From: Myxocyprinus asiaticus
Lineage: Eukaryota > Chordata > Actinopteri > Cypriniformes > Catostomidae
Length of the DNA stretch: 64,000 bases
Reading direction: 5' to 3'
Assembly: GCF_019703515.2 (NCBI RefSeq)
Contig: NC_059368.1
Coordinates: forward strand, 33,167,891 to 33,231,890
Shown: positions 26,691-57,140 of the stretch, piece by piece
Position numbering within the stretch: the stretch's first letter is position 1
How the letters are laid out: every line of letters starts with the position of its first letter
Translations under genes and position numbers: made by a program
The notes under the pieces: generated by a model
Told to the model about the DNA's origin: nothing
The model's database searches: none
What the model saw: the letters and a program-made list of their open reading frames with translations, nothing else

Positions 26691-26889
26691 TCTTTTAGAA
26701 GAAAATATACTCTTTTAGAATATACTCTTTTTGTTTTAGTTATTTCTGCCGAAGTGCCCAGGGGCATTCTCTGCACTGCACCGGTGCAGAGGGGGAGAAG
26801 CCGCTGAAATGTGCCATAGAATCCAGCAGAGGAGGTGAATGAGAATCGCGAAGAAAGCTCAATGAATAGAATCACTCGGCTCCGAAGAG

Positions 26890-28652: not shown

Positions 28653-28917
28653 TGTGGAGGTGGGGGCGTGGTGGAGCGTTTGTCCGGAGAGAGAGAAAGC
28701 GGTAAGGGTGCACACACCTGAGCGCAATATATCTAACACCTGTTTCTGATTGCAGTGAGCAATGGGAAGAGCGATATAAGGAGGAACCACGCCAGAGACT
28801 GAGAGAGAGAGAGTCGCACAAAGCTGTCTGTGTGTTAAATTCTGGAAAGGTATTTTGAGTTGTTAATTAAAGACTGGCCTTTTTGAGTTGAAGTCACGCT
28901 TCCCGTTTCCTCCTTTA
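28653..28917 (+). repeat. 5' LTR of the decayed Gmr1-like copy (3' end deleted)
   Basis: Begins TGTGGAGGTGGGGGCGTGG and shares GGAGAGAGAGAAAGCGGTAA and TAACACCTGTTTCTGATTGCAG with the other LTRs of the family. It ends near CGTTTCCTCCTTTAATG, after which gag follows at once, so the LTR end, the tRNA primer site and the gag start have been deleted. Confidence 0.8.
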
Positions 28918-28918
28918 A

Positions 28919-29457
28919 TGGGGGCAGAAGATGATCTAGAGGCATTCCTAGACCTCTTCGAGAGAACGGCCGAGATCTGGAGCTGGCCACATGCTCAGTG
29001 GGTGGTCAGACTCAACCCACTGTTCTCCTACCGTATCCTGGTGTACGATGACCTGAAGAAGTCCATCTTGCAGCGGGTCGTTCACAGCCCTGAATAGCAC
29101 AGACAACTCTCCATTCGATGAAGATGGACGCGCGCGGCTGCCCGTTTACTTCACGCAACAGCTCCTTGCAGTGGGTCATTCACAGCCCCGAATAGCACAG
29201 ACAACTCTTCCATTCGATGAAGATGGACGCGCGGCTGCCTGTTTACCTTCATGCAACAGCTCCATGACACCTGCTACAAGTGGCTGCTGGCTGAGGACTG
29301 CGATGCTGAGGGAGTCATCGATCTCGTGGTTCTGGAACAGCTGATCTGTCATCTGCCAAAAGGAATGGTGGAGTGGGTCCAGTGCCACCACTCGGCATCT
29401 CTGGAGGAAGCCATCCAACTGGCTGAGGACTATTTGTCTGCGTATCCGAGGGCGTAA
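28919..29457 (+). pseudogene. Gmr1-like gag, decayed, with SCAN-like segment
   Basis: The first block, 28919-29096, has EAFLDLFERTAEIWSW and DDLKKSILQRVVHSPE before a TAG. A 98-bp duplication follows (29067-29263). The second block, 29251-29457, reads CYKWLLAEDCDAEGVIDLV, VLEQLICHLPKGMVEWVQCH and SLEEAIQLAEDY. That second block is the capsid C-terminal helix bundle related to the vertebrate SCAN domain, with its typical Trp-Leu, VLEQ, LP and WVQ landmarks. The zinc knuckle expected near 29660 has lost its cysteines. It sits between a truncated LTR and the protease and is not expressible as one protein. Confidence 0.82.
29067..29263 (+). repeat. 98-bp tandem duplication inside gag
   Basis: CTTGCAGCGGGTCGTTCACA at 29067 recurs as CTTGCAGTGGGTCATTCACA at 29165, and the two units stay alike to GCAACAGCTCC. 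There are small indels and a few substitutions, so the duplication is not brand new. Confidence 0.88.
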
Positions 29458-29814
29458 CCCTCCCACTCTCTCTCCCCTCCCTCTTGTTTTCCCCCTTCTC
29501 TTCTCTCTCACTCTGTCCCTGTCATACAGCCCGTCCTGGTACCCTGGAGGCAAGGGAAGGTACCGGCAAAGCCGGCTCCCCGTTCTCAGGGGGTTTCCCT
29601 GCTGCCGCTGTCCCTATTGTCTCTTCGCTCTCCCCCTCAGGTGGTTAAAACCGCTGTCACAAGTGCAGGTGTGACGCCTGGGCCTGCCAGTTGGAGTCAA
29701 GGGGTACCCAGGCATTTCCTAGACAATTCCCCATGATGAAGTGGGAACATTGGTCCGGGTTCCCGACACTCCACGGGTTTCCCCCGATCGAGCCGGAGTG
29801 TACAGTATACCTGT

Positions 29815-30024
29815 GAGTATCGAGGAAGTACATATCAAGCCTTGGTGGATACTGGCTGTAATCAGACCTCTATCCAACAATATTTGGTTCAAGATGAGGC
29901 TTTGAGCACAAATAAAAGGGTGAAGGTGAGGTGTGTGCATGGGGATATTCACAATTATCCTGTGGTGACACTCATTATTACATTTTGTGAGCAAAAGCAT
30001 AGAGACCCCCCACCCATCCACTAA
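29815..30024 (+). pseudogene. Gmr1-like aspartic protease, decayed
   Basis: Pepsin-like retroviral-type protease that would mature Gag-Pol. It shows the active-site turn LVDTGCNQTSIQQYL (about 29845) and the flap/C-terminal phrases VRCVHGDIHNYPVVTLII. The matching region of the fuller copy is at 52916-53158. The C-terminal part is lost after KHRDPPPIH. Confidence 0.8.
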
Positions 30025-30399
30025 TTTTGGGGACTTATTGGCCAAAATTTGAGACTCTATTAAAAGGAATATGTGTGGATGGGTCCTGCGAGAAAATTAT
30101 TAGATGTGAGATGCGCTGGCTGGGGAGGTGTAGCCTGGGCCATCAATGACAGCTCCATGTCAGGATTGCATAAGGGAGGTGGGAGTCTCTGCTTCCCCAG
30201 CCGTTAGAGGATTCCCGGCAGTGTATTTCCCTCTGGAGCAGTCACGAGACGAAACCCTTAGACACGCATTCGACCAAGTGAAAGTAATTGATGGTCATTG
30301 TCTTCAGTCAGACACTGTGCTCTCGTACCTGTATTTTTGTATTATAAATGATCGGTTGTATTAAGTGATGCAGGACACTCAGACAAAAGAAGATACAAC

Positions 30400-30798
30400 C
30401 CAGTTGTTGATACCGAAGAGCCGTCGGGAAATGCTATTCCAGACGGCTCATCATAAACCGTCTAATGGCCCATTTCTATTGGCCGGGCATTCACGGGGAT
30501 GTTCGCAGGTGGTGTGCGGCATGCCGTGAATGTCAGCTGGTGAATCCACTGGCCACCCCAAGAGCACCTTTGTGCCCAATTCCTTTGGTCGAGGTCCCCT
30601 TTGAAAGAACTGGTATGGACCTCATCGGGCCATTAGTGCGGACAGCATGCGGCCATCGCTTTGTGTTGGTTCTGGTGGAATATGCAACGCTATATCCAGA
30701 AGCAGTGCCCCTGCACAACATCTCAGCACGTAGTGTTGTGGAGGCAGTCTTCAGAATAATCTCCCGAGTGGGGATTCCGAAAGAAATCCTCACTGATC
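30400..30798 (+). pseudogene. Gmr1-like integrase, N-terminal half (before the L1)
   Basis: Integrase inserts the LTR-retrotransposon cDNA. The zinc-binding CxxC is visible in WCAACRECQLVNP; the first catalytic Asp in GMDLIGPL; then HRFVLVLVEYATLYPEAVPL. The frame runs into KEILTD, where the L1 interrupts it at the second catalytic Asp. The part before 30465 lies in another frame and carries the His pair less clearly. The gene resumes at 35846 after the LINE. Confidence 0.86.
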
Positions 30799-30935
30799 GG
30801 GAGTTATGTGATGCCATGCGAGGATCAGATGTGTGAATGGCGAGCTCTGCACACTTTGCTAGTTTTAACACTTTTAATGATATAAACCGGTGAGATTCGG
30901 TACACTCTGTTCCATAACTGTTCTAGGAGGACAAT

Positions 30936-31757
30936 ATGTCAAAGAATTCAAAATCCTTGGGCTCTGGAGACATTAAAAGACACTTACGTGCTCAAACTGA
31001 CACCCCCGAGCGGGCCGCGAACCTGGGAGTCGATTTGGTCAGAGAGATGCGGTGAGAGATGCTGGGCATGTCGGCAATGCTGACGAAGGTCGTTGCTGAC
31101 TTGGAGGATCTTGCTGTGATACATCGATCAATCACTGCCATGGAGGCGAAGTTCACTGAGGTGGTTACATGAGTGGGGGATGTCGAGAAACGGATTGATT
31201 ATCTGGAGTCATTGGAGAGGGAATTATCTGCTAATCCGCTAGCGATCAAGGTGGATTTGGAGTGTGTCTGGGAGAAGTTGGAGGACATGGAGAACTGTAG
31301 CCAGCGGAATAATGTCCGTATCGTCAGAGTTCCTGAGGGCGAAGAGGGACAGGATATGGTGAAATTCTTGGATGGGCTCCTTCTGAATCTGCTCGACATA
31401 GCAGGCCATAAGCTGGAAATCGAGCGAGCTCACAGTTCCTTCTCGGAGATCTGCGGAGGGAGACAGGCCCCGGTCAATTCTGGCCAAATTTCTGAGATCA
31501 TCCGATAAAGATCTTGTGTTACGTAAGTTGAGGAGTAAAGGAAGGCGTTTTGGTAAAACCACAGGATTTTCTTGTTCCCAGACTTCGCAGATTTGACGAG
31601 AGAAACGTGATCGATTCAAGGAATGCAAGAAACTTTTACAACAATGGAAGGTCGCTTTTACACTGATATTCCTGGCCAAATTGAGAATAGATGCTAAGGA
31701 TGGCCGTAAAACATTCACATGCCCACAGAAAGCGATGTCCTTCATAAAGTCAATGTA
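30936..31757 (+). pseudogene. L1 ORF1 (RNA-binding chaperone), decayed
   Basis: ORF1 protein coats the L1 RNA. The start ATG at 30936 (MSKNSKSLGSGD) follows GGAGGACAAT. The frame has a TGA at 31053 and a second stop before 31173. It then shows a coiled-coil stretch (VEKRIDYLESLERELS), the RRM-type phrase DMENCSQRNNVRIVRVPEGE and EIERAHS. A frameshift near 31430-31480 moves the C-terminal domain (LAKFLRSSDKDLVLRKLRS, FTCPQKAMSFIKSM) into another frame ending about 31757. The order coiled coil - RRM - C-terminal domain is the standard L1 ORF1p layout. Confidence 0.83.
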
Positions 31758-31859
31758 GTGAGTAAGTCATCTTGTGGTACCCACATTGCAGCCGAGTGGA
31801 CTGGCTCACTGAACATTCACTTGACTGTTCGAGGAAATTGAGCCTTTTATTTATTTATT

Positions 31860-32540
31860 TATTTTTTTTTTGCTGGATCCGCCTAGCGGCTGGAGTTTGT
31901 TTTGTGAGTAATACACCTTCAGGACAGCTTTATGGATGAATCTACATGCTCTTTGTACTTATTCCTCCTATTGGCTGGAGTTTGTTTTGTGGAGTATTTC
32001 TTGCAAGACATTGGAGTGTTTAAGTCATTTGTTGCACTCATGTTGCAGCTGAGTGGACCGGCTCACTGAACATCCATTTGACTGTTTGGGGAATTGGCGA
32101 GCTCTTCTTGTGCTGGTTCTGCCTAGCAGCTGGAGCTTATTTTGAAGAGTAACACACCTTCAGGACAGTTTTATGGATGAATCTACATGCTCTTTGTGTT
32201 TATTCCACCTATTGGCTGGATTTTGTTTTATAGATTATCTTTTGCCATGTAATTCTGTCTCACAAAATTTTTATAGAAACATCGGACTTGAATAATCCGA
32301 CTCAAAGTTGTCACGGGGGATCTCGTAGGCATACATGGACTGTTTGAGTTTGTATGGATGGACACCAGTTGGTGCTGTTGTGTGCGGGGTAAATGCGCAC
32401 ATTTTTCTTTTTTCTGTTTGTTTGGTTCTGGGGAATGTCCGGGGTTTGATGGAGGCACTAATGTTGGAATGTGGTCTTTATAATCTTGTTTTTGGCACAC
32501 TATCTATTTTTTCTTATATGTCAAAATTTCAAATGTTAAT
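31860..32540. other. Inter-ORF region of the L1, with an internal duplication
   Basis: CGGCTGGAGTTTGTTTTGTGAG, CAGGACAGCTTTATGGATGA and CATGCTCTTTGTACTTATTC at 31885-31975 recur as similar text at 32120-32215 (caggacagttttatggatga and catgctctttgtgtttattc). There is therefore a diverged direct repeat of about 240 bp between ORF1 and ORF2. No gene is seen. Confidence 0.7.
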
Positions 32541-35500
32541 ATGAGTGGATTGTCTCTCTCCACGTGGAATATGAATGGGTTGGGGCACATCATAAAAAGA
32601 AGGAAGGTTATTTCTCTTCTTAAGCAATAAGAAATATGATATAGTGTTTCTTCAAGAAATGCATCTTTCTCTGCAGGAAGCTGAAAAATTTGGGAGGATA
32701 TGGGGTGGGCATGCTTTCTTTAGTGCTGGCTCGAGTAAGAGCAGGGGAGTCATTACACTGATAAGTAAACATCTACAATTCAAATGTCTCAAACAGATTA
32801 AAGATAAATTAGGAAGGGTCATTATTGTTTTAGCTGAAATTCAGGGGCAAAGTCTTATTCTGGCTAATATTTATGCAACTAACATTGATGATCAGGGCTT
32901 TTTTATAGATCTTGAAGGGATGTTGCAAGCCGCTGGCACCCCTTATGATATTATACTGGGAGGAGACTTTAATCTTTTGATGGACTTAGTCCTTGGTCAT
33001 AGTGAAGCAAAAGTGTGTAAGCCCCCTAGAGTAACATTGACGCTTCACAGGAGCTTGGTCTTGGTCTTACAGATATTTGGAGACTTTTGAACCTATTTGG
33101 GAGGGACTATAAGTAAAACCCTAAAAAGTCCCTAATTTCATCTGATGTTGATTACTCATTGGAAATATTTTAGTTTCAGATCATGCCCTGGTGTGTTTTG
33201 AGGTGTTGCCACATATGGAGAAGAGGAAATCATATAGTTGCCGCTTTAATGTATCCCTTTTGCAAAATCCCTGAATTCCAACAAATGTTAAAGGCTGAAA
33301 TCAATGTCTATATGGAGACTAACTAGTCCTCAGTATCCTCTGTGGGCGTGGCTTGGGAGGCACTTAAGGCGGTTCTTAGGGGCCGGATCATAGAGTATGC
33401 CACATTCACCAAAAAATCCAAAGCATAAGAACTCTTGGAATTGGAAGGGAATATTAAAAGTGCTGAGGCAGAGCTGAAACAACAAATGTTGTTTAATGGC
33501 CTCAGAGAATTGACCCGTCTGAAATACAGATATAATACTATTTTGTCGCGGTAGGTGGAGTTTTGGCTATTCAGGGAAAGACAGTCATACTTTGAGTTGG
33601 GGGACAAAGCAGGGAAGCTACAGGCTAGATATATAAAACAGAGAGAGTATTTTTCTACCATTTCCTCAGTAAAATCTGCTGGTGGTGAAATATTTACCTC
33701 AGCCACTGATATTAATAATGCTTTTAAAGAATTCTATCTTGATCTTTATAGTTCCACATCTTCGTCTACTGAAGAGGATATTAGAAACTTTGTGGAACCA
33801 TTAGAACTTCCTAAACTGCCGGCTGAGCAAAAAAAGTCTCTTGATTCTGAGATAACCTTGGAGGAGCTTGGTGAGGTAATTAAGGCCTTTCCTACAGGCT
33901 CCGGGGCCAGATGGCTTTGCCGCTAAATTTTTTTTTATCTTATGCTACAGAACTGGCTCCACGTTTGCTAGAAGTTATACGGAATCATTAAAGAATTGAA
34001 AGCTTCAGCCAACCGTGACACAAGCCCGGATCAGTCTGATACTTAAAAAGGACAAAGATCCAAGCGAGTGTAAGAGTTACCATCCAATTTCCCTGATCAG
34101 GATAGATGTTAAAATATTGTCAGAAATTTTGGCTAACCGACTGAGTAAAGTTATGACATCTCTTATACATATAGATCAGGTGGGGTTTAATCAGGGCCTT
34201 AACTCTTCTGATAACATTAGGCGTTTCATTAATGTCATGTGGACAGTGGTGAATGATCAGATTCCGGTCGCTGCCATCTCGCTTGACGCCAAAAAAGCAT
34301 TTGATATGGTAGAATGGGATTATCTTTTTAAGAATTTTGGAAATGTACTGATTTGGGAATACTTTTATTGGGTGGATTAAGTTACTTTATAGACACCCAG
34401 TAGCGGCGGTTCAAATGAATGGATTCATTTCAGATTCTTTCACTCTGGATAGGGGCACCCGGCAGGGTTGCCCTCTTTCCCATTTATTGTTCTGTCTTGC
34501 CCTGGAACCATTAGCTGCCATGATAAGAAAAGAGGATGATTTTCCAGGGGTGGTGGCGGGAGGTGTGGCACATAAGCTTTTGCTTTACACAGAAGATATT
34601 TTATTATTCGTCTCCGACCCTACTAGATCTATGACTTGCCTCCACAGAATTATTTATTCATTTTCTGAGTTCTCAGGATACAGAGTTAATTGGTCTAAAT
34701 CCGAAGCTTTGGCACTGACAGCATACTGCCCGGTAATGGCTTTTCAGCTGGGCACCTTCCAGTGGCCCACACAGGGCATTTAGAATTTGAGTAGTTTATT
34801 TCCAGAAAATTTGTGTGATTTAGTTAGAGTTAATTTTGACCCTTTAATAAAAAAGGTTTTCGAGTGATGTTGGCAGGTGGGCTTCATTACATTTAACTAT
34901 GATTGGGAAGGTTAATGTTGTTAAAATGAATTGTATTCCAAAATTCAACTACCTGCTACAATCTCTCCCTGTAGATGTCCCCCTCTCTTATTTCAAGCAA
35001 TTTGATAGCATAGCGAAGTCCTTCATTTGGAATGGTATGCGGTAAGACGATTGACAAAGGTGGGCTAGGCCTACCCAAGATTTTGTTTTATTATTATGCA
35101 TTTTGTCTCGGACATTTGACTCACTGATCGCTTCCACTTGAGAGAGCCCCTCCCTGGTTTTGTATTGAATAGGAAGTTCTTGCCGCTATCTTGCCATCGC
35201 AAAACCTTTCTATCAAACTAACCGGAAAAGTTAGGTTACACCCCGTTATTTCGCATTTGCATGCGGTATAGACAAAAGTGTCCAGTATGTTTAATTTAGA
35301 CATTTATTTATATTTTGCTTCGAGCATATGGCTGAAGTCCCCTTTCTACTAGACAGAGTGGATTTCAATGGAGATTAATACGTTCGGTGACCTAAATGAG
35401 AGTGGAGTGTTGAGATCCTTTGAAAATATGGTTCAACATATTTTGATTCCCAGGTCTCAATTCTTTAGATATTTACAACTGTGCCATCTGCTCTGTACTA

Positions 35501-35825
35501 TTTTTGGGAGTAGCATACACCCCCCTAGAGTGGCAGACACTCTGGGAGTGGTGATTACTGCCTTTGGAAAAGGTCATGAGGCATCAGTGTATTACTCCCT
35601 GCTAATTCAGACTGAGGGGAATGGAGCTTCAACTTCTCACAAGAGATTATGGGAGAAAGATTTAAACTTGGTATTGGAGGAGGGAGTGTGGGCTAGGATT
35701 CTAAAAACCATCAAGTCTGCATCTAGAGGTGCAAGGGTGCACCTTATGCAATTTAAGATTTTACATCAATTCTATTGGACCCCCTCTATATATGTTTTGT
35801 TTTTCTGTTTCATTTTTTGGAGTCA
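32541..35825 (+). pseudogene. L1 ORF2 (endonuclease and reverse transcriptase), decayed
   Basis: The protein begins MSGLSLSTWNMNGLG at 32541. Endonuclease signs are VFLQEMHLSLQE (about 32645), IILGGDFNLLMD (about 32950) and VSDHALVCF (about 33176). The RT leader is at 33555-33926 and the fingers at 34015-34380, with KSYHPISLIRIDVKILS and ISLDAKKAFDMVEWDYLF. The palm at 34415-34783 has TRQGCPLSHLLFCLALEP and LLYTEDILLF, where YADD has become YTED, so the first catalytic Asp is Glu. C-terminal blocks lie at 34880-35760. Many frameshifts and stops are present. The end looks shortened just before the tail. Confidence 0.87.
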
Positions 35826-35845
35826 ATAAAAAGTGTTAATCGAAA

Positions 35846-36410
35846 AAAAGAAATCCTCACTGATTAAGGCACTACTTTTATGTCACGAACACTACGCAAA
35901 CTGTACGAATTATTGGGAATAAAATCGATTAGCACCCGTGTTTACCACCCACAAACAGATGGGTTGGTGGAATGGTTTAATAAAACCCTGAAGAATATGA
36001 TTCATAAGTTCGTAAACGAGGATGCTAGAAATTGGGATAAGAGGCTCGAACCCCAATTATTTGCAGTCCGAGAGGTTCCACAAGCTTCCATGGGGTTTTC
36101 CCCATTCAAGCTACTGTATGGGCATTGGCCGCACGGTGTGCTCGACATCATGCGGAAAGCTTGGGAGGAGGGACCTTCAAACAGCAAAAATGAAATTCAG
36201 TACATTCTTGATCTTAGAGCAAAACTCCACACTTTGGGTCAACTAACACAGGAAAATTTGCTCCAAGCACAAGAATGCCAAAGCCGGCTGTATGACAGGG
36301 GAGCTCGGCTATGGGAATTTGCACTGGGAGATAAAGTGCTTGTATTACTCCCAACATCGTGCTCCAAATTACTCGCCAAATGGCAAGGGCCCTTTGAGGT
36401 CACATGATGA
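35846..36410 (+). pseudogene. Gmr1-like integrase, C-terminal half (after the L1)
   Basis: Resumes with KEILTD, then a TAA where the other copy has CAA, then FMSRTLRKLYELLGIKSIST, YHPQTDGLVEWFNKTLKNMI, REVPQASMGFSPFKLLYG and LGDKVLVLLPTSCSKL. The catalytic Glu expected in DGLVERFN is present (GLVEWF). The last part is the SH3-like C-terminal domain. The copy leaves the family alignment at 36441 (ISIMRQNE). Confidence 0.85.
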
Positions 36411-36441
36411 GTGGGAGATCTCAATTATGAGGCAAAACGAG

Positions 36442-36576
36442 CCTGAGTTCCACTTCGTGGGCACCAAGCCTGAGTTCCACGTCATGGCCGCCAAGCCCAA
36501 GTTCCATGTCATGGCCGCCAAGCCCGAGTTAAACGTCATGGCCGTCAAGCATGAGTTCCACGTCATAGCATCCATT
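36442..36576 (+). repeat. 27-bp coding-type minisatellite, five units (gag-like PEFHVMAAK)
   Basis: Five 27-base units translate as nine-residue repeats of the type PEFHVMAAK; later units vary (PKFHVMAAK, PELNVMAVK). Such His-Val-Met-Ala-Ala repeats occur in gag proteins of fish LTR retrotransposons. It joins the Gmr1 copy directly at 36441. Confidence 0.8.
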
Positions 36577-39074: not shown

Positions 39075-39182
39075 TGGGCGCTTCGGCAGAAATAAGAGTA
39101 TATTTCTCTAAAAGAGTATATTTCTCTAAAAGAGCAGCACACACGGGACATCTTTTTAAAGACGCATCTTTTTAAAGATGTC

Positions 39183-40450
39183 TTTCCGATTGTGTGTTAT
39201 TCCTGGTTGCGCTCGTTATCTCTCGCCTTCTGACGGTCACGATCACTGTCTTTCGTGTCTGGGCACTGCTCACGTTGAGACAGCGTTCGTGGATGGTCAT
39301 GTACTCATTGCGAGGACATGTCCATGGCAACGATGCGGTCACGGCTCGCCTTCGTAAGAAAGCAAGCCACCCCAGAGGCTCCCCGCCTCAGTCCTTTTAC
39401 CCACGGGTATGAGGCCAGCGCGGCTAGCACTGGGGGCGATTTGGGGACCCCAATAGGACCACCTCCACCGGGTAACCCCCCGCGGACCTCCCATTCCCAG
39501 CACGCTCATCTGCCCCGATCGGGCTTCCGGATGAGTCTGCCGGCTCGTCTCATGGCGAGTTCGACCTCTTATTCGGAGCCCGCGAAAGTGATGAGCTCTC
39601 GAGCACAGCATCGGAGAGCGGGCTCGTCCAGTCGGACACGAAAGCCTCAGCTGGGCTCCTCCCTTCGGGGACGATTGCCCAGTAACAGGCTGATGCAGAG
39701 ATGACGACATGCTGTCCCGGGCAGCCACGAGCGTCGGCTAGAGTGGAACCCTCCGCTCTTCCCTGAACCCTCGCGGCTCGATGATTGGTTCCTGGGCTCG
39801 CGGTGCCGCTCATAGCCACACTCCGCCCCCATTCCTTTCTTCCCGGAAGTGCATGAAGAGCAGACGAGGTCGTGGGAGGTACTTTTTTACTGCCCGGTCC
39901 CGATCTTTTCAGTTTCCCCGCCCTCAATACCCTCGATGGTGGGGCAGCCAAGGGCTATTTGGCAATCCTCCGGTGGATAAAGGCGCTCGCGGTGCACCTA
40001 TGCCCACAGAGCGCCGCCACCTCGCGCGGGTGCCCAAAGCCCCCGTCCAAGGCCTGTAGGTTTACGTCGTCTCTGACGGCCAAGGCCTACGGTGCCGCTG
40101 GACAAGCCGCCTCCGCCCTGCATGCCATGGCTCTCCTGCAAGTCCACCAAGGCGCTAAAGGAACTGCACGAGGGTAGTTCCGCCCCGGGATTGATGCAGG
40201 AACTGTGCTCGGCAACGGAGGTCACTGCGCGGTCTCTCGGGCGGACGATTTCCACATTAGTGGTCCAGGAGCGCCACCTTTGGCTCAACCTGGTCGAGAT
40301 GGGTGAGGCCGACAGGACACAATTCCTTGCTGCCCCCATCTCCCAGGCTGGCCTATTCGGCGACACCGTCAAGGACTTTGCCCAGCAGTTCTCGACGGTG
40401 GAGCAGTAGACGGAGGCTATCAGGCATATCCTGCCCCGGCGTGGCTCAAG
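39183..40450 (+). pseudogene. DIRS gag-like gene, copy 2, frameshifted
   Basis: The first frame gives FRLCVIPGCARYLSPSDGHD, HCLSCLGTAHVETAFVDGH and a further Cys pair; a frameshift near 39318 follows, then MRSRLAFVRKQATPEAPRLS. Later comes FFPEVHEEQTRSW-like text near 39838 in another frame, then TLVVQERHLWLNLVEMGEAD and GLFGDTVKDFAQQFSTVEQ (40092-40409). These are the same landmarks as copy 1 at 25454-26690, so the assignment is consistent. The first block is the Cys/His cluster and the last a predicted helical capsid region. At least three frame changes are needed to read it, so it is a pseudogene. Confidence 0.75.
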
Positions 40451-41149
40451 ATCCCACACCCCATCTGCTCGTCGCCAAGGGCGTCCCCCTGCGGTAACTG
40501 CACCGGCTCCACCGCAGCCCGCCCCTTCAGCCCGGCCCCGGCGTGGAGCCCATTGCAGGAAGCAGATGCCACCCATCTCGTGGCCGCCAAGAACCCGTGA
40601 ACGGCTTTAAAGCACCCTTGAGACGGGCGACCCAGGGATGACGAAACCCGCTGCTCTGGAGCTGGTAAGCAGATCTCTCCATCTTTTTGTTACCTTTGCA
40701 TTTAATTGCGCTGCATGCCCAAGTGGCTGCAGTACTCAAGAGTTCAGCAAGAGCAGTTTCCTTGTTCCCTGGGTCACGTATCCAGTGTGCACGGCCGTCA
40801 TCACGACCACCGTCCACCACTCTATTTGGCAGGTTTGGCTCCGATGTGACAGTCTCCAGGGGTCACGAGGACAGGCCTCTTCCTCCCCCATCCCAGGCTG
40901 TTCCGGGGGTGGTCACAAGGAGCCAGGTAAGTGCTTCGATGTCCCTAGATTCAGCACGGCCACAACATGGTGTGGCACCTCGAGCTCCACCCCGCCGTGA
41001 AGCCCCAATTGCCGGTACGTCCGACGATGTTGTCCCTTTGGTCCCCCTTGCGCGGATCATGGACGTGTGGCTTGCACTTTCCAATCCGTCGCGATGGCTG
41101 GTCCGGACCGTCTGACTCGGCTATGCGATTCAGTTCGCCAGGCGTCCAC

Positions 41150-41892
41150 CCAGGTTCAGCGGTGTCCACTTCACCTTGGTGAAGGGCGAAAACGCTGCTA
41201 CCTTGTGCGGAGATTGCTAACCTCCTACGGAAGGGTGCGATTGAACCTGTCCCTCTGGCTGAGATGAAGAAGGGGTTTTACAGCCCCTACTTCCTCGTAC
41301 CGAAAAAAGGTGGTGGGTTGCGGCCAATCTTGGACCTGCGAGTACTGAACCGGTCTTTACACAGACTCCTGTTCAAGATGTGGATGCAAAAATGCATTCT
41401 GGTGAGCGTCCTGCGTCAAGATTGGTTCGCGGCGGTAGACCTGAAGGACGTCTCGATCCTTCCTCGACACAGACCCTTCCTGCGGTTTGCATTCGAGGGT
41501 CAGGCATATCAGTACAAGGTCCTCGCATCTTCATGAAGGTCGCAGAGGCAGCCCTTGCCCCGCTAAGGGAGGTGGGCATTCGCATTCTCAACTATCTCGA
41601 CGACTGGCTAATCTTAGCTCACTCTCGGGACATGTTGTGCGCAAACAGGGACTTGGTGCTCTCACACCTCAGCCGACTAGGGCTTCAGGTCAACTGGGAA
41701 AAGAGCAAGCTCCTCCCGGTTCAAAGCATCTCTTTTCTCGGTTTGGAGTTGGACTCAGTCTCTTTGACAGCGCGCCTCACGAACGAGCGCACTCAGTCAG
41801 TGTTGGTCTGTTTGAAGGCGTTCAAACAGAAAACAGCGGTTCCACTGAAACTTTTCAGAAACTCCTGGGGCATATGGCATCCTCAACGGTGA
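41150..41892 (+). pseudogene. DIRS reverse transcriptase, copy 2
   Basis: Read in pieces: KGENAATLCGEIANLL; RKGAIEPVPLAEMKKGFYSP; YFLVPKKGGGLRPILDLR; VLNRSLHRLLFKM; FAAVDLKDVSILPRHRPFLR with the first catalytic Asp; FAFEGQAYQYKVL. After a frame change come FMKVAEAALAPLREVGIRIL and NYLDDWLILAHS with the YLDD box at 41593-41604, then LGLQVNWEKSKLLP and ISFLGLELDS. A PFGL-like motif expected before the frame change appears to be deleted near 41525. The motif set is that of DIRS/Gypsy-type RTs. The enzyme would copy the element RNA, but frame breaks prevent one product. Confidence 0.87.
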
Positions 41893-41899
41893 CCACCCC

Positions 41900-42383
41900 G
41901 CTCGGGTTGATGCATATAAGACCGCTTCAGCACTGGCTTCAAACTCGAGTCCCGAGATGGGCATGGCGCCGCGGGACACATCGCATGGTCATCACGCCAG
42001 TCTAGCACCTTCTTTTCAGACCTTGGTCCAACCTCTCGTTTCTACTGTCAGGTGTTCCCCTAGAACTGGTCTCCAGGCACGTCATGGTCACAACGGACGC
42101 CTCCAAAACGGGCTGGAGCACTGTTTGCTATGGGCACACTTCCGCTGGCTTGTGGACGAGCCTGCGACTGCATTGGCACATCAACTGCCTCAAGTTATTG
42201 GCAATTCTGCTTGCCCTGCGGAGGTTTTGGCCGTTGATCCAGGGAAAGCGCGTGTTAGTTCAGACAGACAACACGGCAACGGTAGCATATGTCAACCGCC
42301 AACACGGTCTGCACTCTCGTTGTATGTCACAACTCGCCCGCCGTCTCCTCCTCTGGAGTCAGCAGCACTTCAAGTCGCTGTGA
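41900..42383 (+). pseudogene. DIRS RNase H, copy 2
   Basis: After MHIRPLQHWLQTRVPRWAW (41909 on) and a stop near 42003, the frame from 42084 reads VTTDASKTGWSTVCYGH (first Asp), NCLKLLAILLALRR (Lys where copy 1 has the Glu of NCLELLAV) and VQTDNTATVAYVN (Asp). The Glu-to-Lys change removes a likely metal ligand. It sits directly after RT, as in all DIRS elements. Confidence 0.82.
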
Positions 42384-42841
42384 GCCACCTGAATCCCGGG
42401 CAACCTCAACACTACAGCGGATGCACTGTCACGACAGGTTACCCTCAGGGGAGAGTGGAGACTCCACCCTCAGGTGGATTTGGAGTCGATTCAGACAGGC
42501 ACAGGTGCACAGTTCGCCTCCCAAGAATCCTCCACACTGCCTGCTCTGGTACGCCCTGACCGAGGCTCGGCATAAACGCGCTGGTACACATCTGGCCCCC
42601 TGGCATGTGCAAATATGCGTTTCCCCCAGTGAGCCTACTTGCAAGGTCAGGGAGGACGAGGAGCAGGTCGTCCTGGTAGCACCCTACTGGCCCACACAGA
42701 CATGGTTCTCGGACCTCACGCTCCTCACGACAGCCCCCCCCCCCAGCAAATTCCCCTGAGGAAGGACCTTCTTTCTCAGGGACGGGGCACTATCTGGCAC
42801 CCACGACCAGACCTCTGGAATCTCTATGTCTGGCCCCTGCG

Positions 42842-43828
42842 GTGGTAGACACGATCACTCAGGCTGGGGCCCCCTCTACGAGGTGCCTGTATGCCTTTAA
42901 GTGGCATCTGTTCGCTAAGTGGTGTTCTTCCCGACGGAAATTCCCCCAGAGATGCGCAGTTGGATCAGTGTTTTCCTTCCCGCAGGAGAGGTTGGAAGGG
43001 AGGCTTTCCCCATCCACCTTGAAGGTGTACGTTGCCGCCATAACAGCACACCACGACGCAGTTGACGGTAAGTCCTTATGAAAGCACGACCTGATCATCA
43101 GGTTCCTAAGAGGTGCCAGGAGGCTGAATCCCCCCACACCGTGCATCACTCCCTCATCGGACCTCTCTGTAGTTCTTCAAGATCTACAGAGAGCCCCCTT
43201 TTAGCATTTGCAGTCAGCCGAGCTTAAGGAACTCTCCTTGAATACTGCCCTCCTGACTGCGCTCACTTCCATCAAGAGGGTAGGAGACCTGCAAGTGTTC
43301 TCTGTCAGCAAAACGTGCCTGGAGTTTGGTCCGGGCTACTCTCAAGTGATCCTGAGACCCCGACTGGGCTATGTGCCCAAGGTTCCCACCACCCCTTTTA
43401 GGGACCAGGTGGTGAACCTGCAAGCAATGCCCCAGGAGGAGGCAGACCCAGCCCTGTCATTGCTCTGTACGGTGCGCGCTTTACACATCTATTTGGATCG
43501 CACGTAGAGCTTTAGGATCTCTGAGCAGCTCTTTGTCTGCTTTGTTGCACAGCGGAAAAGAAGTGCTGTCTCCAAGCAGAGGATCGCCCACTGGCTCATT
43601 GATGGCATAACTATGGCATATCACGCCCAGGACATGCTGCCCCCGGTAGGGCTACGAGCCCAGTCTACCAGGGGTGTAGTGTCCTCCTGGGCCCTGGCCA
43701 GGGGTGCCTCTCTAACAGACATTTGCAGTGCAGCAGGCTGGGAAACACCCAACACCTTTGCAAGGTTCTACAACCTCCGGATGGAACCGGTTCCGTCCCA
43801 GGTAGTGGCACTCAATACAAGTGGATAA
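42842..43828 (+). pseudogene. DIRS tyrosine recombinase, copy 2 (catalytic His lost)
   Basis: The N-terminal core-binding domain reads TRCLYAFKWHLFAKWCSSRR and LSPSTLKVYVAAITAHHDA, with a TGA at 43079. The catalytic domain has SIKRVGDLQVFSV (Arg), QSTRGVVSSWAL where His of HxxR is Gln, and AAGWETPNTFARFYNLR with the Trp and the Tyr nucleophile. Stops also occur at 43202 and 43505. Copy 1 at 23561-24415 is the better-preserved version. RNase H lies upstream and the 3' UTR downstream. Confidence 0.85.
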
Positions 43829-44564
43829 GCCTGGGATAGCCGGCCGGGTGTATCACTTGCATATAGCGCCTTCCACCTCCTTTTGAGCTGAAGACATGCG
43901 CCATTAATTCCCAGTAGGTTCACAAATTTTGTTCCCTGGTTGACTTCCTCCGAGCCCTATGGCAGTCGAGTTTTTGGAGAGACTCGCTACCGGCCCAGTA
44001 CATGTGCTAACTAAAAGCCCTGTTCTGGGGTAGGTGCTCCGCATGTGGCAGTTCCCTGTAAGGCTAACCCCATGTGATATATGTCTTCCACTAATTTGTT
44101 TCCCTGTTGGCAAACTGCGTCTTCCTTGGGCAGAGCCCCTCTGCCCCAGTCTCCATGTTTGTAATAACTCCTCCCCCATTGGGTAGGATCTAGCTTGAAG
44201 TTTCTCCACATGGTTGGAAAAACCATGTGACGTATTCTTCCACTTAAATACCCCCCCCCTTTGGGCGAGGTGTGGTCTCAGCGGTGTCTTCCCCTTGGGA
44301 GGGACACCCCCCGATTAGACCTGGCGGCCCAGTCGGATAATCCCCCTTCATTTTTAGGGAGTGGAAAATGAGAAGGGGAAAAGAGGCCACGACTGGGTTA
44401 AGCCTGTCTCTATCTCTTGAGTAGTCAACTTGTCCCCAAAGGGCCGTTCGACACTCATAACTATGTTGGGGGAGGTTACGTGTCGACCTGGTGTGCTGGC
44501 TATGAGGCACACAGTAGTCTGCCCACCACACACCGCCAGTTCATGTAACACAGTTCAGCCAATT

Positions 44565-44695
44565 GTGGCGTTTCGTATAGGGACCCCTAGTGTCACTACA
44601 TCGACACAACGTCGAGTGAGTGACAGATAGGGAATGTCATGTTTACTTGTGTAACCTCCGTTCCCTGATGGAGGGAACGAGACGTTGTGTCCCTC
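44565..44695. repeat. DIRS copy 2 internal complementary region
   Basis: Carries GTCACTACATCGACACAACG, GAGTGAGTGACAGATAGGGA and TGTGTAACCTCCGTTCCCTG, joining the sequence of one outer terminus to the other. The equivalent of 22645-22775 in copy 1. Confidence 0.8.
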
Positions 44696-44955
44696 CTGCC
44701 ACAATGCTGAACTACCCGCTGAAATTGCCGGACCTTATATTGGCTCCTCAGCATAAAACCTGAATGAGTGGTTGCATACCAGCTCCTTTTATACCCCGGG
44801 GGAGTGGCATGCAAATACCACTCGCCAATTTTCATTGGCCTTTTATCAAAGACCACAGGTGTCTCGGGCTCCCAAGAGTGACCCCTAGTGTCACTACATC
44901 GACACAACGTCTCGTTCCCTCCATCAGGGAATGGAGGCTACACAAGTAACCATGA
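44690..44955. repeat. DIRS copy 2 3' inverted terminal repeat
   Basis: Contains ACTCGCCAATTTTCATTGGC, GTCACTACATCGACACAACG and TCGTTCCCTCCATCAGGGAA, and ends near GCTACACAAGTAACC. It matches 22377-22600 in reverse orientation. The frame at 44764-44949 is a translation of this repeat and not a gene. Confidence 0.85.
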
Positions 44956-46282
44956 CGTTTCATTTAATATTTAGTATATTATATATTTAGTTTCCATCCA
45001 CTTTTTGCACTGTTCTGTTATCAACAAAGTGAAAATGCATAACAAATATTTTGCGAAAATTGCTGCCTCCTGCTCGTTTCCATTCAAATGGCTTTTTACT
45101 GATAAAATGGTGTGCGTCATGACGTCATTCTTAAAAAAAAAAAAAAAACACTTTGTCGCATGAGTTTTGGTTTAGCGCAAAATAAATCTGCCCTTGAGCC
45201 GTTTCCATACAGAATTTTGTGTATATCGCAAATTGTGTAGTCTACCTTTCACATCCCAGATATCCCCACATTTGTGCAAAATGTAGAGAATATTGAGAAT
45301 TGATTTAAATTGTCCAGCTTACTGTTTAATTTCGCATAACTGCAATAGCAGGAAATATCAGAAGACAACATAGAATTGGAGAAGCTGCTGGTCTGCATCT
45401 GGGATTATTAGAAGAAACTGATTGGAATACTTGGCAAAATACAACACAACTGGTGGCATTAATGAGCCTGTAATCCTATATTACACTCCGGAATTAAAAT
45501 ATGGACAATCCGCTCAAATTATGTAATTGTATTTGTCCCTGCAGAAAATATGTTGTGTTGTGAGGAGTGATAAAAACTTCAACACTCCTCTTCACTTTTC
45601 TCAAATCACAAAATAACATGCATATGTTCTTATCTAATCTAAAAACACGGCGTAATCTTTACCGGCTTGGGAATGTGTAGCCCATAAAAAGTCTGGAAAA
45701 GCTTCCATCAAGAATAAAGTTAATGTGTCTTTTAAAGAAACTGAGGAAAACTTGAGTCTCCTCACCAGTCCAAGTGTATGCTGCTTCTCCATTATGCTGT
45801 TTGTTTTAAGGACAAATCTGATGTAAATTCTGTCATGTGACTACATTTTTGCGTTAATGCAATTTTTTCACGACAATTGATGTGTCAGCATAGGATTTAT
45901 GTTAAACTTAAATGGAAAAATATTATGTCGACACTTGTGAAATTTTATCAATAATTTGCATTTACATCAACTTTATGCGCTAAAACTTTTTTTCACAAAA
46001 AAAATCCTTGAATTGAAATGTATTTATGTTTGAACAGTGGTGAAACACTTTCTTATGATGTGTTACATGTATATGAGCAGAGAGAGGGCATTTTCACACT
46101 GTTAAGAGGTGGTCATAAAACACTACGAGTTACTACAGCACGTTTGCACATCTAAACAGAAAACAGTTAGAAACACTTTGACAGTTGAAACACAATAAAT
46201 ACACGATTACGACAATATATGGTTTGTCAATTTTTTTCATGAAATTTAGGTATTTTTAGAAAAATAAATGAGAATGAGTACA
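44956..46282. other. Probable non-autonomous DNA element and spacer
   Basis: TTTCCATCCACTTTTTGCAC at 44992 and AAGTGAAAATGCATAAC near 45030 at the left, with TTTTTTTCACAAAAAAAATCC near 45988 at the right, resemble the ends of a fish Harbinger-like MITE (GTTTCCATCC type). TTTCCATTCAAATGG and CCGTTTCCATACAGAATTTT recur inside. No coding motif. Confidence 0.35.
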
Positions 46283-51366: not shown

Positions 51367-51414
51367 TACAAATGTATGAATACACTTTAACATTTGAGTT
51401 AAACACAATAACTG

Positions 51415-51758
51415 TGTGGCAGCGGGGGCGTGGTCAAGCGTCTCTCCGGAGAGAGAGAAAGCGGTAAGGGCGCTTGCACCTGAGCTAGATTATGTCTAAC
51501 ACCTGTCTCTAATTACAGTAAGCACGGGGAGAGCGGCATAAAAGAGCCACACTGCCAGCAGATGTGGAGAGAGACACTGGGTCCCCAGAGTTATGTTTGT
51601 GAAGTTAAGAGTTTATTATAGTTAAGTTGCAGAGACTGTTAATTTATCACGGAAAAAGTTATTATTGTAAAGTTGAGAGCAGTATGGTCATTAAAGAAAC
51701 CTAACCTGTGAGTAGAGCAACCTGCCTCCTGCCTCCTCCTTTCCACGGAACATTCACA
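51415..51758 (+). repeat. 5' LTR of the Gmr1-like element
   Basis: Starts TGTGGCAGCGGGGGCG and ends GGAACATTCACA. It has a TATA-like CATAAAAG at 51537-51544 and a polyadenylation-like ATTAAA at 51690-51695. Equal in length to the 3' LTR. Confidence 0.93.
51537..51544 (+). promoter_or_regulatory. TATA-like box of the LTR promoter
   Basis: CATAAAAG, conserved in both LTRs (and as CATATAAG in the solo LTR). Position about 120 bp into the LTR, reasonable for a U3 promoter. Confidence 0.5.
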
Positions 51759-51759
51759 C

Positions 51760-51777
51760 TGGTGCCGAAACCCAGGA
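51760..51777 (+). promoter_or_regulatory. Primer-binding site, tRNA-Phe type
   Basis: TGGTGCCGAAACCCAGG begins two bases after the 5' LTR. It is complementary to the 3' end of tRNA-Phe except for one base (CCCAGG for CCCGGG). Start of minus-strand DNA synthesis. Confidence 0.8.
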
Positions 51778-51793
51778 AAAATTTTGGTTGAAG

Positions 51794-52915
51794 ATGCACG
51801 GAAGTCACACCGTATAGTCCTCCCAGTTGGCTGAGATCCTCCAAGCCCCCGCTGGCCTACATCGGAACCATCAGCAAACCTTGCTTGAGCTCCAGCAAGA
51901 TCAAGATCACTGGTTTGTGGAGCTCCTACGTACTCAAACAGAGGACCGGCAGGTGATCCGGAGCCTCCTCAGCCAGGAGGCATCCCCAGCCGCGACCCCG
52001 GACACTCACACGCTGTTGCTCCCATCTGCGCTACAGAAGATGGGGATGGTGGATGACCCCTAGGCATTCCTGGATTTGTTTGAGCACACCGCCAAGATCT
52101 GGGGCTAGCCGCTCGGCCAGTGGGCGGCCCAACTTATTCCGCTGTTGTCCGGGGAATCCCAGCTCATGGCTCAACAACTGCCGGCGATGAGCCTCCTGGC
52201 TTATGGTGACCTGAAGAAAGCCATCTTGCAACGGGTTGGTCGGAGTCCAGAAGAGAATCGTCAACTCTTACGGAGCCTGAAGCTGGAGAACTCCGACTGC
52301 CCATTTGCCTTCGCCCAATGGCTCCGCGATGCCTACCGAAGATGGCTGCTAGCAGGGGACCGCGGTGTCGACGGGATCATCGACCAGGTGGTACTGGAGC
52401 AATTAATACTTCGACTGCCAAAAGGGATGGCGAAGTGGGTCCAGTGCCACCATCCGGCATCGCTGGAGGAAGCTGTCCGGCTTGCAGAGGACCACATGGC
52501 GGCGATCCAGAGGGTGGAAGAGCCCTCCTACTCTCTCTCCCCTCCCCCTGTGTTTTCCCCTGTCTCATCCCCTACCCCTCTCTCCTCTCGTTCTGCTCTC
52601 TCCCCAGGGCCCGTTCCTGCCCCACACAGGCGAGGAGGACTTCAGCCACCGAGACCAGCTCCCCGGGCGTGGGAGGCGACACCTCCCCCTACCCCGATGC
52701 CCAGCTGCTCTCCCTCTCAGGTGGGGGCGCCCGCCGACACAAGTGCGGGCATAGCGCCTGAGCCAGCCTGCTGGAGGTGCGGGGACCCAGGCCACTTCCA
52801 GGATCAGTGCCCTCTGATGGAGCTAGGGACGGTGGTGCAGGTCTCCAACCTCCTGCAGGCTGCCCCCGATGCTCCGGGAGACCGGGCCAGTATCCCGGCT
52901 ACCGGATACCGGTAA
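51794..52915 (+). pseudogene. Gmr1-like gag with SCAN-like capsid segment and zinc knuckle
   Basis: Structural protein of the retrotransposon particle. Stops occur at 51815, 52061 and near 52108; from 52145 the frame is open for 256 codons. In that open part, residues 38-120 (52256-52504) form the SCAN-like capsid helix bundle: ENRQLLRSLKLENSD, LRDAYRRWLLAGDRGVDGII, VVLEQLILRLPKGMAKWVQC and SLEEAVRLAEDH. A Pro/Ser-rich linker follows, then the CX2CX4HX4C zinc knuckle CWRCGDPGHFQDQC (52769-52810). Protease overlaps its end in the -1 frame. Without the early stops it would be a standard gag of about 370 residues. Confidence 0.88.
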
Positions 52916-53158
52916 GTGTCAAGGGGGGAACTCACCAAGTGTTGGTGGACACCGGGTGTAATCAAACCACTATCCACCAACACTTGGTTCAACCCGAGGC
53001 TTTGGGTACAGCTAAAACGGTGAGGGTGAAGTGTGTGCACGGGGATATTCACAAGTATCCTGTGGTGACTCTGACGATTAAATTCCAGGGGAAAAAGCAT
53101 AGAGTGGAGGCTAGGGTTAGTTCCCGCCTCACCCATCCGCTGATTTATGGGATGGATT
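52860..53158 (+). pseudogene. Gmr1-like aspartic protease
   Basis: Lies in the -1 frame relative to gag and overlaps its last codons. Active site LVDTGCNQTTIHQHL (Asp-Thr-Gly, about 52946); then VKCVHGDIHKYPVVTLTIKF and HPLIYGMD before TAG at 53158-53160. The -1 relation matches programmed frameshifting in many LTR elements, though decay could give the same picture. It cleaves the Gag-Pol precursor in intact relatives. The enzyme core is open here. Confidence 0.85.
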
Positions 53159-53411
53159 AGCCTGACTTTAGAGATTTATTAAAGGGAATTTGTGCGGATG
53201 TGTCCTGTACTAAATTAGAAAGATGTGCAATGTGCAATGCGCTGGCAGGGGAGGCGAAGCCGGGGCCATCCTCGACAGTTCCACGTCCTAATGGTGAGAG
53301 AGGGGGAGAGGCTGCAGCCACGCCTTCGACCAAGTAAGAGACATCGATGGTCAACGACTCCAGCTGGACATCGCCCTTTCATACCCCTATTTTGCAATTA
53401 TAAATGAGCGG

Positions 53412-54430
53412 TTGTATAGAGTGATGCAGGACGATCAGACTAAAGAAGATACACCCCAACTTTTGATAGCACGGAGCCGTCGGGAAATGGTATTCCAGGC
53501 GGCTCATTATAATCCCATGGCGGGTCACTTAAGAGAAAGGAAAACACTGAACCATCTAATAGCCTGCTTCTATTGGCTGGGCATTGGCGGCGATGTCTGC
53601 AGGTGGTGTGCGGCATGCCGCAAATGTCAGTTGGTTAACCCACCGACCACCCCAAATGCGCCGTTGCGCCCTCTTCCGTTGATCGAGGTCCCCTTTGAAA
53701 GAATTGGAATGGACCTTGTCGGGCCATTAGAACGGTCGGCACGCGGACATCGCTTTGTATTGGTCCTAGTGGACTATGCAATGCGATATCCCGAAGCAGT
53801 GCCTCTTCGCAACATCTCAGCATGCAGTGTTGTGGAGACACTCTTCAAAATAATCTCCCGGGTGGGGATTCTGAAAGAAATCCTCACTGATCAAGGCACA
53901 ATGTTTATGTCACGGACACTACGCAAGCTCTATGAATTATTGAGCATTAAATCGATTCGCACCAGTGTGTACCATCCACAAATGGATGGCCTGGTGGAAC
54001 GATTTAATAAAACCTTTAAAAACATGATTTGTAAGTTCGTGCACGACGATGCTAGAAACTGGGTAAATGGCTCGACCCCCTGTTATTTGCAGTACAAGAG
54101 GTCCCGCAAGCCTCCACTGGCTTCTCCCCATTTGAGCTGCTGTATGGGTGACACCCACGCAGTGTGCTTGATGTATTGCTAGAGGCCTGGGAGGAGGGAC
54201 CTTCAAATAGTAAAAATGAAATTCAATACGTTCTTGATCATAGAGCCAAACTCCACACTTTGGGACAACTAACACAGGAGAATTTGCTCCAAGATCAAGA
54301 ACAACAGTGCCGACTGTATGACAGGGGAACTCAGCTAAGGGAATTTGCACTGGGAGATAAAGTGCTTTTATTACTTCCCACATCAAGCTCTAAATTACTC
54401 GCCAGTGGCAAGGGTCCTTTGAGGTCACAC
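53412..54430 (+). pseudogene. Gmr1-like integrase, located upstream of RT
   Basis: The frame from 53412 has His32 and His39 (AAHYNPMAGHL) with Cys69 and Cys72 (CAACRKCQ) as the HHCC zinc site. The catalytic triad is Asp101 (GMDLVGPL), Asp160 (EILTDQGT) and Glu196 (DGLVERFNKT), spaced DD35E. After RNW at about 54060 a frameshift moves REVPQAS-like text to other frames, and a small deletion lies near 54150. The C-terminal SH3-like part (REFALGDKVLLLLPTSSSKL) is at 54164-54430. It sits between protease and RT, not after RNase H as in ordinary Gypsy elements. The zinc linker is shorter than in the older copy. Confidence 0.9.
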
Positions 54431-54435
54431 GACGA

Positions 54436-56003
54436 GTGGGAGATCTCGATTATGAGGTTAAACGAACTGATAGAGGGGGCACACGTCAAATATACCACCT
54501 CAACCTCCTGAAATTGTGGAGGGAGGTGGTCCCTGTGACGCTGGCTACGGTAGTTCCAGAGAAGGCAGAGCTCGGACCCGAGGTGAATTCAAAATATAAA
54601 CAGTTCACCCCGGTCACTTGCGGAGACCACCTCTCACCGAGTCAACTCGCGGAGGTTGCCAGGTTGCAACAGGAATTTGCGGATGTGTTCTCCCCTCTAC
54701 CGGGTCGTACAAACCTCATTCACCACCACATCGAGACCGAGCCGGGGGTCGTGGTACGTAGCCGCCCCTACCGATTACCTGAACACAAAAAGAAAATCGT
54801 TCGGGAAGAATTGGATGCAATGCTCGATATGGGGGTAATAGAAGAATCTCACAGCGATTGGTCCAGCCCAGTTGTTCTAGTGCCTAAGAGCGACGGGTCT
54901 GTACGGTTCTGTGTGGATTATACGAAAGTCAACGCGGTGTCTAAATTTGACGCGTATCCATTGCCTTACGTTGATGAGTTGCTCGATCGGTTGGGCACTG
55001 CTCGATTTTTTTCGACATTGGATTTGACTAAGGGTTATTGGCAAATCCCCTTGACACCAATTTCCCGTGAAAAAACGGACTTCTCCACACCGTTTGGATT
55101 ACACCAGTTTGTGACACATCCGTTCGGTTTGTTTGGGGACCCGGCTACATTTCAGCATCTCATGGACCAAATTCTCAGACCGCATTCATCTTACGCTGCT
55201 GCCTATTTAGATGACATCATCATTTACAGCACTGATTGGCAGCAGCACATGCAACGTCTGAGGGCTGTTCTGTGATCGCTGCGCCGAGCGGGACTCACAG
55301 CGAACCCAAAGAAGTGCGCAATTGGGTGGGTGGAGCTACGGTATCTGGGGTTTCACTTGGGCCACGGGCAGATGCATCCCCAAATTGATAAGACAGCGTG
55401 ACAGATTGTGACCTACCTGAGGCCCAAGACCAAAAAGGGGGTGAGACAGTTCCTGGGGCTGGCTGGCTATTATAGAAGGTTCATACCTAACTATTTGGAC
55501 GTCACCAGCCCGCTGACTGAGCTCCAGACCCGGTCCAGTGGACAGAGCAGTGTCAGCAGGCGTTCACTCAAGTTAAAGCTACACTTTACGGGGGGCCGCT
55601 TTTACATTCACCTGATTTCTCTATTCCTTTTGTTTTACAAACAGATGCTTCAGACAGGGGGCTGGGGGCCGTACTCTCGCAGGTGGTGGAGGGGGAGGAG
55701 CACCTGGTGCTGTACATTATCCGTAAGCTCTCGTTAAGGGAAACTAAGTACAGCACCATGGAAAAGGAGTGTCTCGCCATCAAGTGGGCAGCCCTCACTC
55801 TCCAATACTACCTGTTGGGGCGGGCCTTCACCCTCTGTTCGGATCACGCCCCGGTCCAATGGCTCCACCACATGAAAGACACCAACGCGCGTATCACCCA
55901 TTGGTATCTAGCTCTTCAGCCGTTTAAGTTCAAGGTGGTCCACAGACTGGGAGCGCAGATGGCTGTCGCCGATTTCCTTTCCAGAAATGGGGGGGAGTGG
56001 TAG
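54436..56003 (+). pseudogene. Gmr1-like reverse transcriptase and RNase H
   Basis: RT from about 54600: TNLIHHHIETEPGVVVRSRP, REELDAMLDMGVIEESHSDW, PVVLVPKSDGSVRFCVDYTK, FFSTLDLTKGYWQIPL (first Asp), FSTPFGLHQFVTHPFGLFG and AAYLDDIIIYS with YLDD at 55204-55215. A TGA at 55273-55275 stops the frame after RAVL; a further TGA follows before YLRPKTKKGVRQFLGLAGYY, and a frameshift near 55545. RNase H reads LQTDASDRGLGAVLS (Asp, about 55637), TKYSTMEKECLAIKW (Glu) and FTLCSDHAPVQWLHH (Asp), then ADFLSRNGGEW and TAG at 56001-56003. The enzyme motifs are of Ty3/Gypsy type, which makes the upstream integrase notable. Confidence 0.92.
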
Positions 56004-56029
56004 GCAGGCCGGATGCCTCCCCGGCCTGA

Positions 56030-56046
56030 GTCGGGCGGTGGGGATA
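56030..56046 (+). promoter_or_regulatory. Polypurine-rich tract before the 3' LTR
   Basis: CGGGCGGTGGGGATA directly precedes the TG of the 3' LTR. Its G-rich position fits the plus-strand primer site, although it is interrupted by C and T. Confidence 0.5.
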
Positions 56047-56390
56047 TGTGGCAGTGGGGGCGTGGTCAAGCGTTTCTCCGGAGACAGAGAGAGCGGTAAG
56101 GGCGCTTGCACCTGAGCTAGATTATGTCTAACACCTGTCTCTAATTACAGCAAGCACGGGGAGAGCGGCATAAAAGAGCCACACCGTCAGCAGACGTGGA
56201 GAGAGACACTGGGTCCCTAGAGTTATGTTTGTGAAGTTAAGAGTTTATTATAGTTAAGTTGCAGAGACTGTTAATTTATCACGGAAAAAGTTATTATTGT
56301 AAAGTTGAGAGCAGTGTGGTCATTAAAGAAACCCAACCTGTGAGTAGAGCAACCTGCCTCCTGCCTCCTCCTTTCCACGGAACATTCACA
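56047..56390 (+). repeat. 3' LTR of the Gmr1-like element
   Basis: Same 344-bp length as the 5' LTR, with 11 hand-counted differences, ten of them transitions. Ends GGAACATTCACA. Confidence 0.93.
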
Positions 56391-56614: not shown

Positions 56615-57140
56615 GTCTTGGTAGCACTTTACTTTACAGTATGTGTACTTTCCTGGTACATATTTGGTAAACATGTTGTACCTGCAGACAAATGTATAGT
56701 AACAAGAGGTACTTACCTGAAGTGTTCATGAATAGTAACGAATTTGAAACATTACTATACTTACCAATAGTACTGTACATACATGGTAATTATGCTGTAC
56801 CTCCAGACATGTGTGAGGTTATAACAGGCACTTATTTATAGTATACACAAATGGTTACTTATATGAACCATTACAATACTTACTATATGTAACTGAATGT
56901 CCATTCAGTACATGGTAAATATGTTTTACCAACAGACTAATGTGGCATAACAATACCTAATATCTAAAGTGAACCTACATGGTAATTAATATGAAACTTT
57001 ACAGTACGTCTCAATGCTAGACATGGTAAATATGTAGTATTTACAGACAAGTATGGGGTAATAACAGGCACTTACTTACAGTGTACGTACAGTATGTTAA
57101 CTAATGTGAAATGTTACCATACTTACAATACATTAAAAAT
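56615..57140. repeat. Degenerate tandem repeat, about four units of ~120 bp
   Basis: The words CATGGTAAATATG/TTGTACC, CAGACAAGTATGG, TAACAGGCACTTAC and GAAACATTAC recur at near-regular spacing. GGTAA-ATATG anchors lie at 56666, 56785, 56914 and 57025 (spacing 119, 129 and 111). The array begins GGTAGCACTTTACTTTACAG, like the end of a fish MITE. No coding content. Confidence 0.7.

Follow-up and report, generated by a model that had tools for sequence, protein, structure and literature searches.

Where does a retrotransposon belong when its integrase is encoded ahead of a Gypsy-type reverse transcriptase (RT)? The question is raised by an element at positions 51415-56390 of a 64,000-nucleotide stretch of the Myxocyprinus asiaticus genome (contig NC_059368.1, positions 33,167,891 to 33,231,890; hereafter the window), in which a pair of long terminal repeats (LTRs) encloses, in order, Gag with a SCAN domain and a zinc knuckle, protease, integrase, Gypsy-type RT and RNase H. 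We conclude, with a probability of roughly 0.95, that this is a fairly young, now broken copy from a multi-copy family of Gmr1-like Ty3/Gypsy LTR retrotransposons. A preliminary description of the locus had already placed it among the Gmr1-like Ty3/Gypsy elements and noted that its integrase lies upstream of RT, and that assignment is upheld by the domain order, the Gypsy-type RT and integrase, the SCAN-bearing Gag, the copies in the genome, and the phylogenetic trees.

All parts of the element lie on the forward strand. The 5' LTR (51415-51758, 344 bp), whose TG...CA ends were read directly, is 96.8% identical over 344 bp to the 3' LTR (56047-56390) and is preceded by AACTG (51410-51414), the left half of a probable 5-bp target duplication; the right half, AACCG, agrees with it at four of five positions. 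Directly 3' of the 5' LTR is a primer-binding-site-like stretch, TGGTGCCGAAACCCAGGA (51760-51777). Gag is represented by a piece at 52109-52912 that contains the SCAN domain (Pfam SCAN, 5.1e-15; of the family, the window copy alone was scanned for it) and a CCHC zinc knuckle (zf-CCHC, 8.3e-5), its N-terminal part being found upstream in other frames with stops. The aspartic protease (52762-53157; gag-asp_proteas, 2e-6) is read in a different frame from Gag in this copy, and its frame is closed by a stop at 53158-53160. The integrase (53298-54179) joins a zinc-binding H2C2 domain (Integrase_H2C2, 1.1e-15) to a core (rve, 3.5e-8) with D-D-E residues at DD35E spacing, in GMDLVGP (53706), TDQG (53886), and MDGLVERFN (53982); among solved structures it matches the Ty3-G polyprotein (7q5b, E 7.5e-16) and PFV integrase (3l2q, E 4.3e-21). 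Its C-terminal stretch continues in another frame (54152-54508), for which the Pfam scan returned no match and tblastn gave colinear matches in all 20 genomic copies described below. A single open frame (54394-55272) then runs from the end of the integrase (Integrase_p58_C, 2.9e-7) into the RT (RVT_1, 4.1e-19), with its YLDD motif at 55204 and Ty3 RT as the nearest solved structure (4ol8, E 6e-42). RNase H (55521-56003; RT_RNaseH, 7.5e-33; RT_RNaseH_2, 4.9e-31) ends in a TAG at 56001-56003, leaving 43 bp to the 3' LTR. Because the Pfam E-values of the parts range from 7.5e-33 to 8.3e-5 (the zinc knuckle), chance is excluded as the origin of this domain set. Frames, Pfam matches and motifs agree with the layout first read from the sequence, from the protease end at 53158 through the DD35E integrase to the Gypsy-type RT and RNase H.

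The window copy bears the marks of an LTR retrotransposon, namely the LTR pair, the TG...CA ends and the near-exact target duplication (4/5); intact coding frames were not found. Its gag, integrase and RT are all interrupted by stops or frame changes, and the copy is therefore dead, unable to transpose itself. Its two LTRs differ at 11 of 344 sites (333 identical), 10 of the 11 differences being transitions, which corresponds to a Kimura two-parameter (K2P) distance of 0.033.

Is the order peculiar to this copy? When the 2.34-Gb assembly was searched with the RT piece, 31235 first-look candidates yielded 134 scored matches, which, the window itself aside, are 90-93% identical. We sampled 20 copies by taking roughly one in seven of these scored (best) matches. 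In 20/20, located on many contigs, LTR, Gag, protease, integrase, RT, RNase H and LTR follow one another on one strand, and in none of them does a forward integrase match lie between RNase H and the 3' LTR; a second integrase after RNase H, which would have spoken against the assignment, is thus absent from these copies. Exact 5-bp target duplications flank 12 of the 20, with four of five positions alike at one more (flanks read by hand), and GGTGCCGAAACCC directly follows the 5' LTR in 17. LTR divergence among the 20 spans K2P 0 to 0.053 with a median of about 0.022 (the LTR pairs of L027 and L028 being partial, and a few LTR borders off by some bases), and the window value exceeds that of 18. 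Two of these loci have features of their own: L027 has a reversed neighbor copy (800-3343) in which Gag, protease, integrase and RNase H were matched and RT was not, and in L028 the integrase end is partly duplicated (4541-6021), still upstream of RT.

The same arrangement recurs in proteins of other animals. Database searches matched 3836 proteins with the RT piece and 658 with the integrase piece, and the best 120 of each (240 proteins) were listed. Among these, the integrase piece precedes RT in 76 of the 76 proteins carrying both, with the integrase core included in 20 of the 76; protease precedes integrase in 29/29 and Gag precedes integrase in 9/9. The source organisms include Solea, Megalobrama, Acipenser, Gadus morhua, Gasterosteus, Oreochromis, several turtles, and the frog Leptobrachium. 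One integrase-plus-RT protein, P0073, is from Gadus morhua, the host of Gmr1, and is 64% identical to the query over 73% of its length. The Gmr1 of cod was reportedly described by Goodwin and Poulter in 2002, as related by papers that cite them.

Further Gypsy lineages are present in this genome. An Integrase_H2C2 profile search gave 150 scored matches, from which eight loci (L029-L036) were hand-picked for diversity, not at random. Seven of them (L029-L033, L035, L036) share homologous RT, RNase H and integrase with the window element but, unlike it, have the order RT-RNase H-integrase, and their RTs are 33-50% identical to that of the window element. The eighth, L034 (G000:C5:8319000-8323600), has the order integrase-RT-RNase H and is 33-45% identical to the window element in integrase and RT; SCAN was not found in the small upstream frames of this locus that were scanned.

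Phylogenetic trees were built for RT (26 rows, with Ty3 as the only named outgroup) and for integrase (20 rows). Coverage of 85% or more was reached by 67 of the 240 proteins for the RT piece and by 84 for the integrase piece, and clustering reduced these to 13 and 9, respectively; the RT rows do not include the cod protein P0073, nor does the integrase tree include L036 (54% coverage). Every protein row was given the label integrase-first, which is partly assumed, since an upstream integrase was present in 11 of the 13 RT rows and an RT in none of the nine integrase rows. Both trees group the window element with fish, turtle and frog relatives, and the window element together with the genome's own copies forms a set with support 100/97 in the RT tree (6 rows) and 100/99 in the integrase tree (5 rows). 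In the RT tree the 17 integrase-first rows other than L034 form one set (95/93), and a constraint that unites all integrase-first rows lowers the log-likelihood by 0.11 units (approximately unbiased test, p 0.305), so that a single clade is not rejected. In the integrase tree all 14 integrase-first rows lie on one side of a branch. In neither tree, with rows that include no labelled Gmr1, does the window element fall outside the integrase-first set, a placement that would have counted against the preliminary description.

Several points weigh against our reading. The RT query spans the integrase C-terminus as well as RT, which favors integrase-first proteins among the best 120. The branch that gathers the integrase-first rows in the integrase tree has a support of just 82/66, and in the RT tree L034 falls outside two integrase-last loci (55/0). 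No row of either tree is labelled Gmr1, the relatives being unlabelled or named by species. Finally, the stretch next to the 5' LTR is no more than a putative complement of a tRNA-Phe 3' end.

The case for membership in the Gmr1-like clade is built on the features and relatives of the element. Passages of PMC2774666 describe integrase downstream of protease in both Ty1/Copia and Gmr-1 Ty3/Gypsy elements, and those of PMC8220671 likewise give the integrase-first order for Gmr1 and report that an annelid has a member of the Gmr1 family. The clade, which the preliminary description had called a lineage of fish and other deuterostomes, is thus not confined to deuterostomes. Integrase between protease and RT (in the window and in all 20 copies), Gypsy-type RT, RNase H and integrase, a SCAN-type Gag, and a vertebrate host are common to this clade and the window element. 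According to portions of PMC3424704 and PMC4592553, the SCAN domain derives from a Gmr1-like Gag. The window SCAN is homologous to that of ZNF24-type vertebrate zinc-finger proteins (ZNF24 SCAN structure 3lhr, E 2.7e-10), from which it differs in being part of a retrotransposon Gag. In Tetraodontiformes, the sections of PMC11117352 on Gmr families describe gag and pol in one frame and consensuses of 6.1-6.5 kb, versus about 5 kb for the degenerate window copy; degeneracy and length aside, no feature compared sets the window element apart. Judged from these features and from its relatives, the element very probably is Gmr1-like.

The alternative that survives best is an integrase-first Gypsy lineage whose origin was separate from that of Gmr1. 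Trees built without a labelled Gmr1 sequence leave room for it, as does the presence in the same genome of L034, a distant and weakly placed integrase-first lineage. We nevertheless consider it very unlikely: the Gag has a SCAN domain, which in frogs is reported by PMC4131045 for more than 50% of Gmr elements and for Gmr elements only, and the integrase-plus-RT protein from cod shows the identity given above. A related proposal, that the integrase-first order arose more than once within Gypsy and that L034 marks a second independent origin instead of a deep relative of Gmr1, is improbable, if less so.

A second alternative is that a local rearrangement or nested insertion placed a foreign integrase ahead of an ordinary Gypsy RT, and a nested insertion does exist nearby, in a decayed relative of the element. 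This relative (28653-36443, forward strand; blast matches at 28987-30800 and 35826-36443) comprises an LTR start, Gag, protease and a split integrase, with identities to the window element of 39.6% for Gag, 56.7% for protease, 61.9-77.1% for the main parts of the integrase, and 46% for one 39-residue integrase piece. Blast within the window found no 3' LTR for it, and neither the RT core nor the RNase H of the element had a tblastn match (E 0.01) in it or anywhere else in the window outside 51415-56390. The integrase is split by a stretch at 30798-35846 on the same strand, with one copy of an exact 18-bp duplication on either side (30780-30797 and 35847-35864); it has an Exo_endo_phos match (2.4e-8) within 32596-33087 and RVT_1 matches (3.8e-13, 2.9e-10) downstream at 34000-34780, likewise on that strand. 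Long interspersed nuclear elements (LINEs) characteristically have an endonuclease ahead of RT and leave a long target duplication; what splits the integrase of the decayed relative is a LINE-like insertion. Because the only RT there belongs to this insertion, the decayed relative cannot support the integrase-before-RT order; it shows protease followed by integrase and is silent on integrase versus RT. The preliminary description had placed the same order in the decayed copy (28653-36441) and had drawn from it the conclusion that this order is the ancestral one in the family. The conclusion stands on the 20/20 genome copies and the 76/76 proteins, and the decayed copy drops out as evidence for it; the genome copies are the stronger support, on which the Gmr1-like assignment, in place of the decayed copy, very probably holds. 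The case also carries a caution, that an RT beside a split integrase may belong to a different element.

For the window element itself, a local rearrangement has almost nothing left to recommend it, as a single open frame runs from the integrase C-terminus into RT and fish, turtle and frog proteins have the same fusion; the identical order in 20/20 copies on many contigs refutes it. An assignment to Ty1/Copia, of which integrase-first is the normal order and with which the window element has domain order alone in common, is just as remote and is rejected on RT and integrase type, as RT is Pfam RVT_1 and integrase is Integrase_H2C2 (no Copia-type RT family being reported at E 0.01), the best solved RT match is Ty3, the tree rows are Gypsy-type with Ty3 as named reference, and the Gag contains SCAN.

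By analogy with other LTR retrotransposons, intact members of this Gmr1-like family would be copied through a full-length RNA, with a tRNA (probably tRNA-Phe) priming reverse transcription beside the 5' LTR. The Gag-Pol polyprotein would be cut by the protease, and the DD35E integrase would insert the DNA copy, creating the 5-bp target duplication. Integrase would be produced between protease and RT as in Ty1/Copia, though RT, RNase H and integrase are all Gypsy-type, and its position N-terminal to RT would change the order of release from the polyprotein.

Other repeats are present in the window. An LTR-start fragment of a related subfamily (18793-18959, forward strand) is 90% identical to the window 5' LTR over 161 bp, and no coding region was matched to it within the window. 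Just 3' of the element are four diverged direct repeats (56662-57086), about 110-130 bp apart. A large inverted pair (22369-27051 and 39167-44965, about 80-91% alike) carries RT_RNaseH (3.6e-7), RVT_1 (1.5e-10), and a sub-threshold phage-integrase match (0.0017), and is possibly two DIRS-like elements in opposite orientation. A Tc1-like DNA transposon occupies 197-1740, where inverted repeats of about 200 bp (97.5% alike) surround a DDE_3 frame on the minus strand (527-1084; 2.3e-14). A frame with an ALKBH8_N match (3.1e-15) is located at 8837-9592.

The integrase-before-RT gene order has already been described, and this kind of element is well known; passages of PMC4746887 count 61 Osvaldo/Gmr families in zebrafish. 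As a Gmr1-like element, the one described here represents a further fish family in a clade already counted in fish. Because seven of the loci examined are integrase-last, while L034 and the window family are integrase-first, the genome holds both integrase orders. With both side by side and young copies present, this genome could be put to modest use in studying when the Pol domains were swapped.

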